From NCBI GenBank assembly GCA_023269545.1, contig JAHFTB010000006.1, positions 1-64,000 on the forward strand: a stretch of DNA of 64,000 nucleotides. The letters are read 5' to 3'. The notes beneath the pieces are model-generated. The model had not been told where the DNA came from. It searched no databases and saw nothing but the letters and a program-made list of their open reading frames with translations. A program made the translations under genes and the position numbers. This DNA comes from Verrucomicrobiota bacterium. Lineage in GTDB: Bacteria; Verrucomicrobiota; Verrucomicrobiia; Chthoniobacterales; Xiphinematobacteraceae. Shown piece by piece: positions 1-19,677 of the stretch (position 1 is its first letter; each line of letters starts with the position of its first letter).

Positions 1-142
1 CTTAGATTTTCACTCTCCTTACGCCTTCTTAAATCTTCATTTCAAAAAAATTATTTACCTCATCAATTAATCCAATTTTCTCTGCTTCCTAGCTGTCTAT
101 TTTTTCGGGGGAACTCCAGACTACCTTTGGGAGGTATGGGCC

Positions 143-451
143 ATGACTCACGAAATGAAAAGTCTGATATCCCGAGAAAGCCTTACCCTTGAGCCTTCGG
201 CGATTGATCGAGTAACGGGAAGCGATATTAGAAGCACTGCAAGGAAAGCAGTTAAGAATATTGAGGCCATACTCGCCGGTGGGGCTACTATAGAAGCTCG
301 CAGGTATAAGATCAATAACCGAGAATTAGAACGTTATAGTATTGCTGAACTGCTTCAACTTCTTTCCTTTTGGCGTAAAGAATTAGCCGATGAAGAGCGT
401 AAGGAAAAGGGAGCGAGTAAACTGGGTCCTCATATCGAATTTCGTATTTAG
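143..451 (+). CDS. Phage head-tail joining protein, gpW-like
   Basis: This 102-residue protein precedes the portal gene by 7 bases, the position lambda gpW occupies before portal gpB. The C-terminal half has the gpW-like pattern of a basic residue-to-matrix segment (RYKINNRELERYS) followed by a helix ending in a short polar tail. In lambda, gpW closes the filled head and prepares it for tail attachment. The start is ATG with a good ribosome site (ggaggt, 129-134). The match is by length, context and weak similarity, so the family call is an inference. The terminase gene expected upstream is not recognisable in bases 1-142. Confidence 0.65.
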   Translation: MTHEMKSLISRESLTLEPSAIDRVTGSDIRSTARKAVKNIEAILAGGATIEARRYKINNRELERYSIAELLQLLSFWRKELADEERKEKGASKLGPHIEFRI

Positions 452-458
452 ATAATTT

Positions 459-1949
459 ATGAAACTACTAGATTTTATCAGCACCCTGGGGAATAAATGG
501 TGGCGAGGAGAACGCCATCAACAGGCGACTTCAATACAAATTCGTGTTTTAAGCCAAGCGGCTGCGAGTAGCCGATTAGAGGATTCCTGGTCTTCCTTCC
601 CTGTTAACGTGGACGCCCACATCTATCAGGAATGGACCACTCTTGTTGCTCGTAGTCGAGAGGGCGTTGAAAATTACGATCATTTAAAGAAGTATGTTCA
701 ATTAGTTCGTGATAATGTGGCTGGTCCCAGTGGATTTAAATTAGATGCTGAGATTCGATATCCGGATGGCGAACTAGATAAATTGACATCGGATGCAATC
801 GAAAAATCTTATGAAACCTTTTCAAGGAAAGGGAATTTTGATACTACTGGTATGCTATCTCGAGCAGATGCCGAGCGAATGATGCTTTCGACTTGGGCAG
901 CCGATGGAGAAGTGATTTGCATTGTTCGATATGGATCCCAGTTTCCTCATGGAATTGCCTTTCAATTTGTAGATCCTATGCGGTTGGATCCTACTAATTA
1001 TCAGAAACTCACCAATGGAAATGTGATTCGTCATGGGATAGAAATGGATGAGGATAATCGCCCTGTAGCCTACCATTTTAAGGAACAAAACGAACAGCAA
1101 TTTGGGTATATTATTGGAGGACGTAGTGGAATTAGAGTGCCCGCTAATCAAATTATCCATTGGTTTTTACCGGAAAAAGTAGGGCAGAAACGCGGTTTGC
1201 CTCCTGCTCGTACTGCTTTATGGAGAATGAGGATGATTGCAGGTTTTGAAGATGCAGCTATTACCAATGCTCGCATAGGAGCTTCAAAAACAGGATTAAT
1301 GAAGAATTTGGATGCGGATCCCCACCCAGAGCCGATTCAATTTGATGTGAAGCCAGGAGTAATTCAAGACATTGGAAATAGAGAATTAATCCCATTTACC
1401 CCACAATTTCCTGAGTCCACTATTGAAATTTTCCTAAGAACACTTCTTCGAAGTAGTGGAGCAGGACTTAACGTGAGCTATCATAACTTGGCAAATGATT
1501 TAACCAGTGTAAATTTTTCTAGCATTCGCCAGGGAGCCCTTGATGAGCGTGAAGTCTGGAAGGGGCTTCAGCATTCATTTCGTGAGGGAGTGGTAGTTCC
1601 TATGTATGAGAAATGGTTGGCATGCGCCTTACTTAATGAAGTGATTAAAATAAATGGCAGGCCACTAAACTTTGCAAATCCGGAAAAATATAAGTCCGTA
1701 TCCTTTAAAGGACGTAGTTGGCCTTGGATTGATCCAGCAGCAGAGCAAGCGGCAAATGAACGTGCAGTTGCCCAAGGATTTAAATCCCGCAGTGAAGTGA
1801 TCAGGGAAACCAGCAACCGAGATCCTGGAGATGTTTGGAGCGAAATGGAAAAGGAAAATATCGAATTAAAGAAACGAGGCATTGTACCGCTAATTCCTTC
1901 CGGATCTGTGCCACCGAGCAACGAAAACTTGGCTACCTATGAATCTTGA
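459..1949 (+). CDS. Phage portal protein, lambda gpB family
   Basis: This 496-residue protein matches lambda-family portals in length and in their typical order of blocks. These are an N-terminal segment with SREGVENYDHLKKYV, a central block with ADAERMMLSTWAADGE, and a later block with SYHNLANDLTSVNFSSIR. Portals form the dodecameric ring at one head vertex through which DNA enters and leaves, and to which the connector and tail bind. The gene sits between gpW and the capsid gene, as in lambda-like head modules. It looks full length with no frameshift. Confidence 0.92.
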   Translation: MKLLDFISTLGNKWWRGERHQQATSIQIRVLSQAAASSRLEDSWSSFPVNVDAHIYQEWTTLVARSREGVENYDHLKKYVQLVRDNVAGPSGFKLDAEIRYPDGELDKLTSDAIEKSYETFSRKGNFDTTGMLSRADAERMMLSTWAADGEVICIVRYGSQFPHGIAFQFVDPMRLDPTNYQKLTNGNVIRHGIEMDEDNRPVAYHFKEQNEQQFGYIIGGRSGIRVPANQIIHWFLPEKVGQKRGLPPARTALWRMRMIAGFEDAAITNARIGASKTGLMKNLDADPHPEPIQFDVKPGVIQDIGNRELIPFTPQFPESTIEIFLRTLLRSSGAGLNVSYHNLANDLTSVNFSSIRQGALDEREVWKGLQHSFREGVVVPMYEKWLACALLNEVIKINGRPLNFANPEKYKSVSFKGRSWPWIDPAAEQAANERAVAQGFKSRSEVIRETSNRDPGDVWSEMEKENIELKKRGIVPLIPSGSVPPSNENLATYES

Positions 1950-10924: not shown

Positions 10925-12067
10925 ATGTCATTCCTACACGGTATTGAGGTCATTGAAATTGACCACGGTCCCCGCCCCATTCGTACTGCCAGCAGCTCAG
11001 TAATCGGACTTGTGGGTACAGCTCCTAATGCTGATGCTACCGCGTATCCAATTAATACGCCTGTCCTTATAACCGGGTCACAATCAGCAATTAAAACTCT
11101 TGGAGACATTGGTACACTTGCCCCCGCGCTAGATGGAATATTTGATCAAACAGGCGCCGCTGTTGTGATTGCTCGTGTTGAACAGGGAGAGAATGCTGCT
11201 GAGACACAAGGCAATATCATTGGTAACAATATAGAGAAAACTGGCATGTGGGCTCTCACAGGAGCTATGAGCAAGGTTGGTGTACAGCCGCGCATTCTAA
11301 TTGCTCCAGGATTCACTCATATAGCTGCCGTTACTACAGAACTCATTGCAGTCGCAAATCGTTTACGCGCTATTGTTGTCGCTGATGGACCTAATACTAC
11401 TGATGCTGAGGCGATTACATTCTCGGGTGGATTCGGGAGCGATCGATTATACATCGTTGATCCTCAGGTGCAGGTATCTCGCAAAGGAGTTATAGTCAGC
11501 GAGCCGGTATCTGCACGCGTGGCTGGCCTGATTGCCAAGAGCGATAATGAGCATGGATTTTGGCGTTCCCCTTCCAATCAAGAAATTCATAGCATAGTCG
11601 GAATCGCACGCCCTATAGACTTTCTTTTTGGGGATCGTAATGTTTCAGCCAACCTTCTTAACGAAAAAAACGTCACCACGATTATTCGGCAGAATGGATT
11701 TCGTCTGTGGGGCAATCGTTCCACTGCTAGCGATCCAAAATACGCATTCTTAAGCGTCCGTCGTACAGCCGACATGATATTTGATAGCATCCTTCGCGCT
11801 CATCTCTGGGCCGTAGATCGCAATATCTCAAAAACGTACATAGAGGACGTCGTTGAGAGCGTAACTAATTATCTACGCGAGCTTCAAAATCTAGGAGCGA
11901 TTCTTGGAGGGGAATGTTGGGCAGACCCGAAGTTAAATACCCCGGAGAGCCTTGCGCAAGGGAAAGTATATTTTGACTTTGATTTTGGACCTTCTTGTCC
12001 AGCCGAACGACTAACCTTCCGAGCACAAATCAACAACGACTACCTCTCTAAAATCTTTACTAAATAA
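10925..12067 (+). CDS. Tail sheath protein, P2 gpFI-like
   Basis: This 380-residue protein matches contractile sheath proteins. It starts SFLHGIEVIEIDHGPRPI and contains SSVIGLVGTAPNAD. A later block (RPIDFLFGDRNVSANLLNE, then ITIIRQNGFRLWGNR-like sequence) and the C-terminal SCPAERLTFRA are the usual sheath motifs. Sheath subunits contract to drive the tube through the cell envelope. Its presence with tube, gpU, gpX and gpD shows that this is a myovirus-type tail. Confidence 0.96.
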   Translation: MSFLHGIEVIEIDHGPRPIRTASSSVIGLVGTAPNADATAYPINTPVLITGSQSAIKTLGDIGTLAPALDGIFDQTGAAVVIARVEQGENAAETQGNIIGNNIEKTGMWALTGAMSKVGVQPRILIAPGFTHIAAVTTELIAVANRLRAIVVADGPNTTDAEAITFSGGFGSDRLYIVDPQVQVSRKGVIVSEPVSARVAGLIAKSDNEHGFWRSPSNQEIHSIVGIARPIDFLFGDRNVSANLLNEKNVTTIIRQNGFRLWGNRSTASDPKYAFLSVRRTADMIFDSILRAHLWAVDRNISKTYIEDVVESVTNYLRELQNLGAILGGECWADPKLNTPESLAQGKVYFDFDFGPSCPAERLTFRAQINNDYLSKIFTK

Positions 12068-12072
12068 TCACC

Positions 12073-12582
12073 ATGGCTACCGCATCTAATATTCTAAAAA
12101 ACTTTAATGTTTTCATCGATGGCCGAGGCTACGCCGGGGTTGCTGAGGAAATGCAACTTCCAACGCTCGGTCTTGCTACAGAGGATTTCCGAGCTGGAGG
12201 AATGGATGGAACCATCAAAATCGAAATGGGACAAGAAGCCATGGAATGCACCATTACACTCTCCGGTTATGATCTCGCAACGCTCGGACTATGGGGAATA
12301 GGAGAAGGAAACAATGTGCCCATTACCGCCCGTGGAGCCTTGGAATCACTCGATGGCACCGTCACTCCAATTGTCGTTAATCTTAGCGGAACAATTCGCA
12401 GTCTGGAACCCGGCGGCTGGAAAGCAGGAGAAAAATCCACATTGCAGCTCACCATCGACGTTCGGTCTTACAAATACACCCAAAATGGGCAGGCAATCCA
12501 CGACATCGACCTCATCAACATGGTGCGAATCGTAAATGGAAAAGACCGTCTCGCAGCGCAACGAAGCGCCCTTGGAATTTAA
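12073..12582 (+). CDS. Major tail tube protein, P2 gpFII-like
   Basis: This 169-residue protein has the P2 tube pattern: LKNFNVFIDGRGYAGVAEE, LPTLGLATEDFRAGGMDG and the C-terminal YKYTQNGQAIHDIDLINM followed by a short charged end. It polymerises into the inner tube through which DNA passes. It follows the sheath gene by 5 bases, the normal FI-FII order. Confidence 0.96.
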   Translation: MATASNILKNFNVFIDGRGYAGVAEEMQLPTLGLATEDFRAGGMDGTIKIEMGQEAMECTITLSGYDLATLGLWGIGEGNNVPITARGALESLDGTVTPIVVNLSGTIRSLEPGGWKAGEKSTLQLTIDVRSYKYTQNGQAIHDIDLINMVRIVNGKDRLAAQRSALGI

Positions 12583-12594
12583 AAAAATACTACT

Positions 12595-12858
12595 ATGACT
12601 GAAACTATTAAATTAACATATCCCATTAAAATCGACGGCACAGAGACACATGAACTTTCTATGCGGGTACCGCTATTAAATGATCTCTTGGCGGTCAAGA
12701 AAAACGATAATAAATCAGAACTAGAAATTGAAATGTTACTTATTTCCAATCTCTGCAAAGTCGCTCCTGACAGCATTCGAGCCATGCCATTTAGAGACTA
12801 TAGAAAACTCGAAAAGGCACTCGCAAAACTTATGGATGACGAAAACCCTTTGGACTAG
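12595..12858 (+). CDS. Tail assembly chaperone gpE-like, short form
   Basis: This 87-residue protein begins with the family pattern IKLTYPIKIDGTETHELSMRVP and ends with the helix FRDYRKLEKALAKLMD. It matches P2 gpE / phage tail assembly chaperones, which coat the tape measure during tail assembly. The stop is a tag at 12856. Just before it lies a pair of overlapping slippery heptamers that would give a longer product, listed separately. The gene sits between tube and tape measure, where such chaperones are expected. Confidence 0.9.
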   Translation: MTETIKLTYPIKIDGTETHELSMRVPLLNDLLAVKKNDNKSELEIEMLLISNLCKVAPDSIRAMPFRDYRKLEKALAKLMDDENPLD

Positions 12859-12986
12859 AGCGCGCGGAACTTTTAAAGGCCATCCTCGCGCTTGCCTCTC
12901 ACACCGGCTGGCAGCCTGAAAATATTGGTCGTCTGTCGTGGTATGATTTTCTCACGTATCTAAAATTCTTGCCTCGAAATGCCTGA
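12595..12986 (+). CDS. gpE-E' frameshift fusion of the tail assembly chaperone (predicted -1)
   Basis: The -1 frame is open only from 12840 and continues to a tga at 12984-12986. It encodes FGLERAELLKAILA followed by LASHTGWQPENIG and LSWYDFLTYLKFL, which looks like the gpE' part of P2-like phages. Switching at the slippery site gives a protein of about 130 residues. The -1 frame has no start codon of its own near the beginning. The extension overlaps the tape measure start by 8 bases. P2 is known to make gpE+E' by -1 frameshifting, and sequence plus position support the same here. Usage has not been shown. Confidence 0.82.
12843..12852 (+). promoter_or_regulatory. Programmed -1 ribosomal frameshift site
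   Basis: In the gpE frame the codons are gaa aac cct ttg gac tag. The bases form two overlapping heptamers of the X XXY YYZ type: A AAC CCT (12843-12849) and C CCT TTG (12846-12852). Slipping back by one base gives AAA CCC or CCC TTT and enters the open E' frame. The gpE stop follows 3 bases after the second heptamer. No obvious downstream pseudoknot was worked out. Confidence 0.75.
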
Positions 12987-14841
12987 AAAACGATTTAAAA
13001 CAGTTCTCGAAATAGGTGGTAACGTCGCTTCTTCTCTTAAGAATGCATTTAACGTACTGAGCGGGAATACCAAAAAGATTGGTTCTACTATTAGAGATCT
13101 TAATACAGATGCAAGGAAATTGCGTAGCGAACTTAAGGAGAAAAAGCTAGGCGGTCTAGAAGCGGCAAATGGGGTTAAAAAACTAGAAAGTGAATTAGCC
13201 AGACTCGAAGCTCGAATTAAACGTACCAGAATGGCTGGAGATGCTCTTGTTCAGATCAAAATGGCAGATTTGGGCGGGAGAATGAGTCAAATTGGGAGCA
13301 GCATCAAGCGAGGCGCAATTGCTATCACTGCTGGAAGCGCTGCAATGGGGGCTGCAATGGTTGCGATGATGAAAAACTCCGCAGACTACGGCGACAATGC
13401 AAAAAAAGCCGCCGAAAGAATGGGCATTGGCATCAACGAACTCATTAAACTAAAACACGCCGCAAAACTATCAGGCGTGGAAGGAGAACAACTAGAAAGT
13501 GGAATCACCAACCTTTTTAAGAGCATAGAAAAAGCACGAAACGGGGGAGACAAAGCAAACATCCTTGCCCTACTGAAACTCAACCCCAACAAACTTGCCG
13601 GCATGAACCCCGAAGAAGCCGTAAAAACATTTGCCGAAGCATTTAAAAACCTTAAAGGCCCCTACGCCAAAAAGAAAGGACTTATCGCTCAAATAATGAC
13701 CGGCGATAAAAAAATGGCAAATGTTCTCGACCTGGGAAAAAGCGGATTAGATGAAGCCGCAAAAGAAGCAGAAGAACTCAACCTGACCATTAATAAAAAA
13801 TTTGCAAAAAATAGTGAACTATTTAATGACAACCTTACAAAAATTGGAGTAGCCCTCAAAGGCGTAGGAAATATAATTAGCGAACATCTGCTTCCCGTAT
13901 TTAATGAACTCTCTCAGCAATTTATTGATTTTATAAAAGGAAATGGGGAAGACATGAAAAAATGGGCAGTAGACTTTGGTGCATACCTAAAACAAAATGT
14001 TCCCCACTGGGCCGAAGAAACTAAAAAAATAGCTCAACAAATTGGCTATGTGGCTGGAAAAATAGGGAAAATTATCGAGCCCCTTGGAGGAGTGAAAGTC
14101 GTGATCGGAGCCCTTCTCACACTGCAATTAGCTCCCCTAGTCACCGGCATAGGAGCCCTAGGATTAGCCCTTCTGGCAGCAATTCCCGCTATATTAAGTT
14201 GTGCCACTGCATTAGGAGCAATGAGCATAAGCGCCCTGCCCATTATCGGGACCGTCCTCCTCATTGGAGCCGCTATTACTGCACTCGGATTAGCAATTCA
14301 CCACGTTGTAAAAAATTGGGACTTTTATCTTCAAAAGATTCAAACAGGCACCACCTTCGCCTGCAAAAAAATACAGGAATTTCGAAAAATATGGGACACC
14401 TGCTGGAATGCACTAGAAATGACAACCCTCAATTTCGAAAAGAATATTTGGAAGAGCATTTCCGGAGTATTTGATCACCTGGATTGGATGAATTCGAAAT
14501 TCCAATGGATAGGAGATAGCGTAAAAAAAGTGGGCGGATGGTTTGGAGGCACTAATAAATATGCACCAGTACAAACAATTGCCGGCGCTCGTGCAATGGG
14601 CGGCCCTGTCTCTGTTGGAAAGCGCTATCTTGTAGGCGAGCGAGGACCTGAGATTTTTCAACCAAGGACGAATGGACAAATCATTCCAAATGGGCGTGCT
14701 GGAGGGAATACAGATAACCGAACTTTTAACATTACCATCAATGCTGCTCCTGGAATGAATGAGCGAACGATTGCAGATTTAGTAATGGTACGCATTAGTA
14801 GACAACAAGCTGCATTCGCGGGTGGAGCTCTTTTCGACTAA
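12979..14841 (+). CDS. Tail tape measure protein, P2 gpT-like
   Basis: This 620-residue protein has a long helical N-terminal part rich in Lys and Glu (about 20-90) and a small-residue hydrophobic stretch near 110-130. A helical body with repeated Lys-rich units comes next, then strongly hydrophobic segments at about 373-440 (LGLALLAAIPAIL, LPIIGTVLLIGAAI). The C-terminal block GERGPEIFQPRTNGQIIPN is a widespread tape-measure signature. The protein sets tail length and helps DNA entry. Its start overlaps the E' frame by 8 bases, and no strong ribosome site is seen, which suggests coupling. Confidence 0.93.
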   Translation: MPEKRFKTVLEIGGNVASSLKNAFNVLSGNTKKIGSTIRDLNTDARKLRSELKEKKLGGLEAANGVKKLESELARLEARIKRTRMAGDALVQIKMADLGGRMSQIGSSIKRGAIAITAGSAAMGAAMVAMMKNSADYGDNAKKAAERMGIGINELIKLKHAAKLSGVEGEQLESGITNLFKSIEKARNGGDKANILALLKLNPNKLAGMNPEEAVKTFAEAFKNLKGPYAKKKGLIAQIMTGDKKMANVLDLGKSGLDEAAKEAEELNLTINKKFAKNSELFNDNLTKIGVALKGVGNIISEHLLPVFNELSQQFIDFIKGNGEDMKKWAVDFGAYLKQNVPHWAEETKKIAQQIGYVAGKIGKIIEPLGGVKVVIGALLTLQLAPLVTGIGALGLALLAAIPAILSCATALGAMSISALPIIGTVLLIGAAITALGLAIHHVVKNWDFYLQKIQTGTTFACKKIQEFRKIWDTCWNALEMTTLNFEKNIWKSISGVFDHLDWMNSKFQWIGDSVKKVGGWFGGTNKYAPVQTIAGARAMGGPVSVGKRYLVGERGPEIFQPRTNGQIIPNGRAGGNTDNRTFNITINAAPGMNERTIADLVMVRISRQQAAFAGGALFD

Positions 14842-16605: not shown

Positions 16606-17907
16606 CTACTTAATAATCAATTTTCGACATTCAATACTTCGATTTGAAATTTCCTCTGTTAGCTGATTAACAATTGGATTATTAATGCCTTGAGAACTTA
16701 TTTCCTTACATAAGGTATGAGATAGGTCTGGCAAGACTGTAGCTATCTTTTTAATCCGATTTAAAAGCTTGCTTGTATTCATTCCAAGCTCTAAAGCGCA
16801 TTTTTCCCATCGCTCTGCATTAATTTCTCGGAGTTTGTAGGCGCCCCCAATTTTCATTGCCATTCCTGCTTTACGTAAATTTGTCTGCCTGGAATAAGGC
16901 AATATACTTGATAGGTCATAAAGAGGAGCTAGTCGCACTTGTCCTCCTGAGGCAATCAAGAATGAATAGTTTTTGGCATGGGCATCGGTTCCACCAATCA
17001 GCCAATTAAAAATTATAGAATCTATAAATCTCAGTTCATCTACTAAGTGGTCACTAGAATATTCTCTGATAAGTTTTATAATATCGACAAGAGAAGGCCC
17101 TCCTTCACTCTGATATTTTTGCTGTGGCATGCGCCCAAGTGCCTGACACATATCCTCTTGATGGATACGAATTACGCCGCGAGAGGCTGTTATGCGATCG
17201 TAACGTTTAATAATAATTACGGGATAGTTTTCAAAATATTGGAGTGAGGAAGAAGCCGTAGATAACCCGGACATCTCTGATAAGCGCATGCAAAAATATT
17301 CATTTTCGGCATAGCTATCAAAAGCGCTGGTTGCTGGTTTAAGAATATGGGTCGTTGGGATTTTCCCACTGGGTATGCCCCATCGATGACTTTCTGGATC
17401 ATAGAAAAAGGCTGTCTTAGGTTGCGCTCCAGCAAGACTGAAATAGCCTATATCATTATTTGTGCGAGATGCGCTATAATCAGTAAGGAGCAATTGAATC
17501 CTTTCAACAATTTCACTTTCCTTCATCCAAACTATACCGCCAGGGCGACTTTTTTTTGACCAATTCTCAATCTGATCTGAACGGATGAACTGAACTGCTC
17601 CGGCACAATCTTCCCCAACATGCCACAATAATTGAAATGGATTTCGATGAGAAACCTTAAATTTTTTTCCCCATTGCCGCAAAATGCCTTCATGATCAGG
17701 AAGTAATCCCCAAAGAAATGTTTCCACAACTTTATGCCCATGTCTGGTGGTAGCCAATGGCATCGAAAGAGACAAAGGAAAGTTTTCTACATCCGCGATC
17801 CATTTGGGGTCGTAGCGAAAGCTCAGGCGGTCAAGTTTTTTATCCCGAATAACCATCCCCATCCATTTTCCTTCCATAAAGGCATGGAGTACCTGGAAGT
17901 CACTCAT
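16606..17907 (-). CDS. hipA: HipA-type serine/threonine kinase toxin
   Basis: This 433-residue protein is close to the usual HipA length of about 440. The phosphorylation loop motif FSLAGAQPKTAFF places the regulatory serine at Ser157. An ATP-site lysine is probable at Lys190 (THILKP). The catalytic motif IGGTDAHAKN gives Asp308, and LYDLSS gives the metal-binding Asp331. In E. coli, HipA phosphorylates glutamyl-tRNA synthetase and causes growth arrest. The target here is unknown. The start overlaps hipB by 4 bases. A location beside the integrase suggests a prophage-maintenance or persistence module. Confidence 0.93.
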   Translation of the reverse strand: MSDFQVLHAFMEGKWMGMVIRDKKLDRLSFRYDPKWIADVENFPLSLSMPLATTRHGHKVVETFLWGLLPDHEGILRQWGKKFKVSHRNPFQLLWHVGEDCAGAVQFIRSDQIENWSKKSRPGGIVWMKESEIVERIQLLLTDYSASRTNNDIGYFSLAGAQPKTAFFYDPESHRWGIPSGKIPTTHILKPATSAFDSYAENEYFCMRLSEMSGLSTASSSLQYFENYPVIIIKRYDRITASRGVIRIHQEDMCQALGRMPQQKYQSEGGPSLVDIIKLIREYSSDHLVDELRFIDSIIFNWLIGGTDAHAKNYSFLIASGGQVRLAPLYDLSSILPYSRQTNLRKAGMAMKIGGAYKLREINAERWEKCALELGMNTSKLLNRIKKIATVLPDLSHTLCKEISSQGINNPIVNQLTEEISNRSIECRKLIIK

Positions 17908-18194
17908 GGTGTATCCCCAGGATTTTTAACTATTTCTCCTAAATCAATTTCCGCCCTAATATGTTTGTACGAAATAGGGCAAAGGGTAATTCCTAATTCT
18001 CGAAGAGTTCGAAGAATCAGCCCTATTTGCGCTGATGGCTTTCCTCGTTCCACTTGGGTTATCCACAAACGACTAGTCCCAACCCTTTGTGCCAGCTCAT
18101 CCTGAGTAATTTTTTTGAGGCGTCGGAGTTCTCGAATCAATGCTCCTATCTCTTTTGCAGAACGAACTGCCGGAAAAGGTGTTTCGGTGTGCAT
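17904..18194 (-). CDS. hipB: HipB-type antitoxin, XRE-family repressor
   Basis: This 96-residue protein has a helix-turn-helix of Xre type at about residues 17-75, with KITQDELAQRVGTS, LWITQVERGKPS and LILRTLRELGI. It is the expected partner of the downstream kinase, binding it and repressing their shared promoter. Direct repeats upstream and over its start codon are probable binding sites. Gene order antitoxin-toxin with an ATGA overlap is typical. Confidence 0.92.
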   Translation of the reverse strand: MHTETPFPAVRSAKEIGALIRELRRLKKITQDELAQRVGTSRLWITQVERGKPSAQIGLILRTLRELGITLCPISYKHIRAEIDLGEIVKNPGDTP

Positions 18195-18425: not shown

Positions 18426-19447
18426 CTACAATGCCCACCAGGCTTCCCAATCGGCCCGTGCCGCTGGGACTGCATAGATCCGTTGAACCATGGCCGGACT
18501 CGTATGACCCATTTGAAATGCTGTCTGAGGAGCGGATTTACAACGTGCTAGATGGTAGGTTGCGAAGGAATGGCGTAGTGCGTTGTCGGGGAAATCCGGC
18601 CATGGCAATTTTTTTTCTATGTGTAATCCGGCGACGAGCCGCTTCCGCTCTTTGTAGAAAGCACTCGCCATTTTAGGAACGATCCCTCCACTCCGTCCCT
18701 GGAAAAAGTCTGCCCGTTTTTTTAATGGTTCTGTAAAATCTACGATTCTCTCCAAAAGTCCATCCGTTTGCTTTGCGACATCGGGACGCACAAAAATTTG
18801 TCCATTTTTAGCATCCACGTCCTGCCAATCCATTCTTCGGATCTCAATACTGCGAAGTCCGGAAAATCCGCCCAAGAGTAACCACGCGCGTATCGGATCG
18901 GCCATTTCAGCTTCTAATAATGTCTCCATCTCGGAGGCTATTAAGATATTTCGGAGGGGTCGTGCTCGGGGAGCTGTAATCTTTCTAAATGGATTTCGTT
19001 CAATTAATTCCATGTCGTGACACCACGAAAAAACATTCCCGCATAACGATGGACTCCGGCTCTTGTGGTATCTGCGCCTGGAATTTTAGAGAACCAATTG
19101 GCAAGTTGTAGCGGGGTCATCGCCGAAATTGGCCCGCGAAACTTTTCCGTGAGTAGACGACACACTCGGGTCATTTTGGATATGTGATCTGCTGAGCTTC
19201 CCGATTTGGCGCGCAAAAACATTTGTACTGCCTGAGCAAGCGGCATTCCTTGCGATTGTTCTTCCGCTAGACCGTCGCTCCCCCTTTTTTTTAATAGACT
19301 TACCAATCGTGCGCCTTCTGCCCAGGCATCTGCTTCGATGGGAAAAAACCTACGAATTTTCTTTCCAGCAAACGATGCGCGAATCTCTAGTTTCCATGGT
19401 GTTGTTGGCCTTGCGGGATATTCAGAAACAAAAAATGGGTACTTCAT
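18426..19447 (-). pseudogene. Tyrosine recombinase (phage integrase), frameshifted
   Basis: The N-terminal part (19447-19004) holds the arm- and core-binding regions. The C-terminal part (to 18426) holds the catalytic domain, with SGLRSIEIRRM, NALRHSFATY and the MGHTSPAMVQRIY box containing the tyrosine nucleophile. The two halves are in different frames. Adding one base to the run of six A at 19028-19033 (T on the coding strand) restores a continuous reading, FFSWCHDMELIERNPF, which is the usual linker of this family. So one base has been lost, or there is a sequence error. The rest seems full length, about 340 residues. It lies next to tRNA-Leu. Confidence 0.85.
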
Positions 19448-19593
19448 CGGTTAGAGACGCTCCTCTTGTTGTCCATGTTGTCCAATATACCCCGAGAAAA
19501 CCCAACATCAACCCACAAGCGGCAACATGACCCAACAAAAGAGATTTTCTCTAGAAGGGCTTATTTCCTAGCTTTAGGAGTTGTTTTTCAGAG

Positions 19594-19677
19594 TGCCGGC
19601 GGCGGGATTCGAACCCGCACACCCTTGTCGGATAAGGGATTTTAAGTCCCTTGCGTCTGCCATTTCGCCACGCCGGC
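19594..19677 (-). tRNA. tRNA-Leu, anticodon UAA
   Basis: Read on the - strand, an 84-base cloverleaf has a seven-pair acceptor stem GCCGGCG/CGCCGGC with discriminator A. The anticodon arm GGGACTTAAAATCCC gives anticodon TAA. A long variable arm and the T arm GCGGGTTCGAATCCCGC follow. CCA is not encoded. The 3' end faces the integrase, which makes this tRNA the probable attachment site of the prophage. Confidence 0.95.

Follow-up and report, generated by a model that had tools for sequence, protein, structure and literature searches.

A putative -1 frameshift at the gpE-E' tail chaperone locus of a P2-like prophage

In phage P2, the tail gene E is translated either as E or, by way of a -1 frameshift, as E+E' (Christie et al. 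2002, as cited in PMC3931495 and PMC3091744), and that tail chaperone genes carry conserved frameshifts is by now textbook knowledge (Xu, Hendrix and Duda 2004, cited together with Christie et al. 2002 in PMC3931495, PMC3091744 and PMC5009743). Closer to the locus described here are Burkholderia phage Mica and Achromobacter phage Mano, in which the frameshift product is annotated as a tape measure chaperone, and the Jilinvirus phages, in which it is unannotated. We report on a locus of the same kind, found in a stretch of 64,000 nucleotides that is called the window below.

The tail operon and its surroundings

The window starts at base 1 of its contig, in an assembly of 2.5 Mb and 59 contigs. 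The features of its P2-like tail operon that are needed here are the following.

10925-12067: sheath FI
12073-12582, + strand: tail tube protein FII, 5' neighbour of gpE (PF04985, E=3.2e-54)
12595-12858, + strand: gpE, tail assembly chaperone, unshifted product of 87 aa (PF10109 Phage_TAC_7, E=2.4e-16; phrog_166, E=1.5e-18)
12840-12986, + strand: E' reading frame (-1), stop to stop and TGA included (E' profile match)
12843-12849, + strand: slippery heptamer 1, A_AAC_CCT
12846-12852, + strand: slippery heptamer 2, C_CCT_TTG
12858-12893, + strand: candidate stimulatory hairpin
12979-14841, + strand: tape measure protein T, 3' neighbour (phrog_8125 tail length tape measure, E=2.6e-35)

Two overlapping frames, gpE and E', are thus lodged between FII and T (gene order over 12073-14841), and the last 8 nt of the E' frame are shared with the start of T, after which come the U, X and D genes. 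Against PF10109 ('E, or 41 or 14'), gpE scored 60 bits for a cut-off of 25. On sequence grounds, this is very probably the E/E' pair of tail assembly chaperone genes, in a P2-like prophage with a contractile tail.

On the 5' side, the contig ends just before the portal gene (window 1-459), and the terminase and earlier prophage genes are out of view. On the 3' side, between tail gene D and the integrase, the prophage carries a hipBA-type pair composed of a HipA-like kinase and its helix-turn-helix partner (16606-18194, - strand). The tyrosine integrase itself (18426-19447, - strand) is split into overlapping frames of 147 and 195 aa; the second corresponds to PF00589 and is shifted by -1 relative to the first. 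The overlap of the integrase frames contains no slippery heptamer, so that a disabling mutation or a base error would more likely account for this split than recoding. The integrase is adjoined by a tRNA-Leu (taa) gene (19593-19677, - strand), a likely attachment site of the prophage.

Slip sites and downstream RNA

The 3' end of gpE reads GAC GAA AAC CCT TTG GAC TAG. A preliminary description of this DNA had placed two overlapping slippery heptamers just 5' of the gpE stop, and both were read directly at the positions given above, in the gpE frame, the first 6 nt before the stop and the second 3 nt before TAG. When positions are compared, heptamer 2 occupies the place of the T_TTT_TTA/G of many relatives and has kept the UUU half, and the place 6 nt before the stop, A_AAC_CCT in the window, is A_AAT_TTT or G_GGT_TTY in other relatives. 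The slip sequence of the window, AAACCCTTTG, carries C where relatives carry T, G or A, and the window is alone among the listed loci in having CCC before UUU. No bacterial or phage case of CCCUUUG / CCCTTTG as a known slip site was found in the literature searched, and we regard AAACCCTTTG as a mildly new slip sequence, outside the usual T-rich set. The nearest relative (L036, tube protein 82% identical) ends 5' of the slip site, so that the exact sequence stands without a near-neighbour comparison.

Slipping on heptamers of this general type has been measured in E. coli, where 61 of the 64 X_XXZ_ZZN heptamers shifted above background in the presence of a strong stimulator, the non-shifting ones being A_AA.C_CC.A, G_GG.C_CC.A and C_CC.G_GG.C (PMC4066793). 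None of these three occurs at the slip site of the window. In the same work a UUN second half shifted better than CCN, and heptamers with both halves made of pyrimidines did better (PMC4066793); CCU/UUG falls outside the strongest motifs under these rules. Between the two sites we favour site 2 (C_CCT_TTG) as the one where slipping would take place, on two grounds: its position is the homologous one, with UUU retained in its second half, and the E. coli rules (UUN over CCN, all-pyrimidine halves) also point there. We consider it possible, and rather doubtful, that the decamer A_AAC_CCU_UUG is a double slip site on which both heptamers shift, C_CCU_UUG being a natural motif unreported for tail chaperones in the literature searched. 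Overlapping heptamers were found in six other loci (L063, L075, L097, L110, L118 = L039 and L085 = L040), on the strength of which tandem slip sites may be a recurrent variant of the family; in L039/L118 and L040/L085 the sites are at the same two places as in the window.

The candidate hairpin downstream has a predicted energy of about -13.6 to -15 kcal/mol (z about -1.5 to -2 when taken alone), and its G-C pairs start 8 to 11 nt 3' of the heptamers. Over 82 loci, folding energy was found to dip just after the slip site, 0-50 nt past the gpE stop, with a mean z of -1.26 compared to about -0.2 at most other places. The dip was weaker when compared to synonymous-codon randomisation (mean z of -0.46, 1 of 60 replicates being as low). 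The predicted stems were in differing registers across loci, and RNAalifold yielded no structure shared by all of them. From these folding predictions, a stimulatory hairpin downstream of the slip site is at most possible.

The E' frame, its relatives and rival readings

Between 12840 and the TGA at 12984-12986 the -1 frame is uninterrupted, and its translation is KPFGLERAELLKAILALASHTGWQPENIGRLSWYDFLTYLKFLPRNA. It counts 47 sense codons from 12843, of which 43 are at or beyond the gpE stop; the open frame announced in the preliminary description is therefore present, and the number of 45 further codons given there holds to within a couple. A profile of E' made from 27 relatives, the window being left out, picked out this frame with E=2.5e-14, and nothing else in the 64 kb scored better than E=0.42. 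The E' of the window retains every invariant residue (L, A, S, H, T, W), together with a full-length frame.

When E' alone was compared by tblastn to 2.3 Gb of phage records, the best match had an E value of only 4e-3. These matches nevertheless adjoined the 3' side of an independently found gpE in phages Arya, ECO1230-10, ep3, PT1, ECOO78, MQ-4 and KA2-1, in which the E' segment is largely unannotated. Scans of E' and of the fusion with Pfam, PHROGs and NCBIfam gave no match for the E' part, and we take this E' subfamily, which has no model in these public collections, as mildly new. PF06528 (Phage_P2_GpE) did not match the E' of the window; one relative, L003, came to 22.1 bits for a cut-off of 23, and a profile-profile comparison to P2-like E' gave 94.7%. 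These last two results suggest that the window-type and P2-type E' groups are probably homologous.

Relatives were gathered in two sets. The first, composed of 28 loci (the window, phage records, genomes of the same phylum and viral contigs), was chosen partly for having the arrangement. All 28 have an X_XXY_YYZ heptamer at the junction, of the T_TTT_TTN, A_AAT_TTT or G_GGT_TTY type, A_AAC_CCT/C_CCT_TTG being present in the window only. The second set weighs more, as the choice of the first depended partly on the arrangement: an alignment restricted to E' was used to scan viral contigs, and yielded 80 loci, among which 66 distinct ones had a detectable gpE. Scans of the viral contigs with the tape measure protein and gpE found no relatives, these single-protein patterns being too specific.

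In all 66 distinct loci, E' was in the -1 frame of gpE, never in +1 and never fused in the same frame. A perfect heptamer was found in 46 of them. The 20 others (among which L047, L048, L051, L067, L083, L106, L109 and L125) have a relaxed site at the same place, for instance CTT TTT A or GTT TTT A. On such a site, re-pairing can be perfect for the codon in the A site, but not for the one in the P site; that it is kept in these loci suggests that A-site re-pairing may be enough for slipping in the E/E' family. Loss of the -1 frame or of the slip site in relatives, which the preliminary description had named as a refutation, was not seen: the frame is kept in 66 of 66 loci, and the junction of every listed relative has either a perfect heptamer or a run of U. 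E' in relatives is under purifying selection, with synonymous change exceeding non-synonymous change in the informative close pairs (pN/pS 0.07-0.40). The frame kept in relatives and this synonymous excess argue that E' codes for protein and is read after a -1 shift.

One genome of the same class (G119, loci L005/L032) shows another layout. Around L005:1750, gpE is followed by a PF06528 domain in the -1 frame, whose own ATG overlaps the gpE stop (TGATG), and the junction has no perfect heptamer. Stop-start coupling possibly replaces frameshifting there.

Three other readings of the window locus were weighed. According to the first, the prophage is decaying: its slip site has moved away from the T-rich consensus, this copy has lost the ability to shift, and its E' is vestigial. 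We hold this as quite unlikely: the slip sequence does depart from the family pattern, the nearby integrase is split into two frames and the contig end cuts the prophage, but E' is full-length with its invariant residues in place, the genes for portal, capsid, sheath, tube and tape, as well as U, X and D, are all long and undamaged, and drift alone would hardly yield two perfect heptamers. Given the multi-contig assembly and the split integrase, some decay or a base error at the locus is nevertheless conceivable.

A second reading, which we judge very improbable, is that E' is a separate translation product, started close to the gpE stop by coupled re-initiation, and no fusion is made. Wolbachia phage WO and Vibrio phage Valp1 annotate E' as a separate small gene, and the overlapping ATG of G119 would offer a start of this kind. 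In the window, however, ATG, GTG and TTG are all absent from the E' frame ahead of its conserved part, which starts no more than a few codons from the slip site, and such a start is absent in most relatives.

Chance expectations were computed for the third. In the other phage genes of the window, in-frame X_XXY_YYZ heptamers occupy 0.66% of codon boundaries, and a single heptamer is expected in the five available slots in about 3% of cases; tandem pairs were found at 0 of 5166 other codon boundaries, and among the 34 gene ends of the window only that of gpE has a tandem pair in a -1 overlap (0 at the other 33). An open frame of 43 codons, expected in about 7% of cases, is unremarkable alone. 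A random heptamer beside an open -1 frame, for which these 3% and 7% could be invoked, has a negligible probability and is ruled out by the homology of E', because the -1 frame beside gpE is the unique match of the profile in the window.

Proposed product and comparison with known systems

The PF10109 match of gpE, its placement between FII and T, the homology of the -1 frame and the selection on E' in relatives all support the P2-type gpE+E' frameshift that the preliminary description had proposed. We hold it highly probable that -1 frameshifting yields here a fusion of gpE and E' of about 130 residues. Most ribosomes would read gpE to the TAG at 12856, and a minority, their two tRNAs being paired to CCT and TTG (site 2) or to AAC and CCT (site 1), would slip by -1, pass the TAG, continue for about 44-45 codons and end at 12986. 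A slip at site 1 would give ...DDENP-F-GLERAEL..., and at site 2 ...DDENP-L-GLERAEL..., a difference of one residue. The tryptic peptides expected are LMDDENPLD for the unshifted product, LMDDENPFGLER for site 1 and LMDDENPLGLER for site 2. We infer slipping from conservation, and what we propose for its rate, for the site used and for the roles in assembly is to be read in the same way. By analogy with lambda gpG/gpGT, gpE would coat the tape measure protein and the E' extension would bring the tube protein to it, the ratio of gpE to gpE+E' being set by the frameshift.

AlphaFold2, applied to E' with 30 relatives, predicted a compact three-helix domain (mean pLDDT 89.9). The best named match of this predicted fold in the viral library was the tape measure chaperone of Mica (137 aa; probability 1.00, TM 0.85 on the query, rmsd 0.7, E=0.1). 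A search among solved structures found no relative of E'.

Compared to P2, the locus has the same FII-E-E'-T order, the same position of gpE, an E' in the -1 frame, for which P2 carries an annotated frameshift between FII and T, and the same 8-nt overlap of E' and T. It differs by its slip sites, 6 and 3 nt before the gpE stop, whereas P2 slips on T_TTT_TTG 18 nt before it, and its E' has a distant likeness to that of P2 (profile comparison probability 94.7). The E' of the window is nearer to the Mica/Jilinvirus type. Mica, Mano and the Jilinvirus phages share with the window the gpE and E' families, the distance of the slip site from the stop and the gene order, but have A_AAT_TTT or G_GGT_TTT as their slip sequence. 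In sequence, the E' of the window is about 34% identical to that of Mica, and the two superpose in fold. With lambda the likeness is one of logic, a chaperone and its -1 extended form encoded 5' of the tape measure gene (PMC5009743); lambda has a non-contractile tail, and no sequence relation is claimed.

These comparisons add a prophage from a little-studied host to the range of a textbook recoding event. They also point to an E' half that is systematically missed, since no Pfam, PHROGs or NCBIfam model detects it in the window and it goes unannotated in most of the phage records examined; the E' alignment (31 aligned sequences, 80 loci) would let annotators recover it. The arrangement and the mechanism are already known from P2, Mica and Mano, and what is new here is the slip sequence and the unmodelled E' subfamily.
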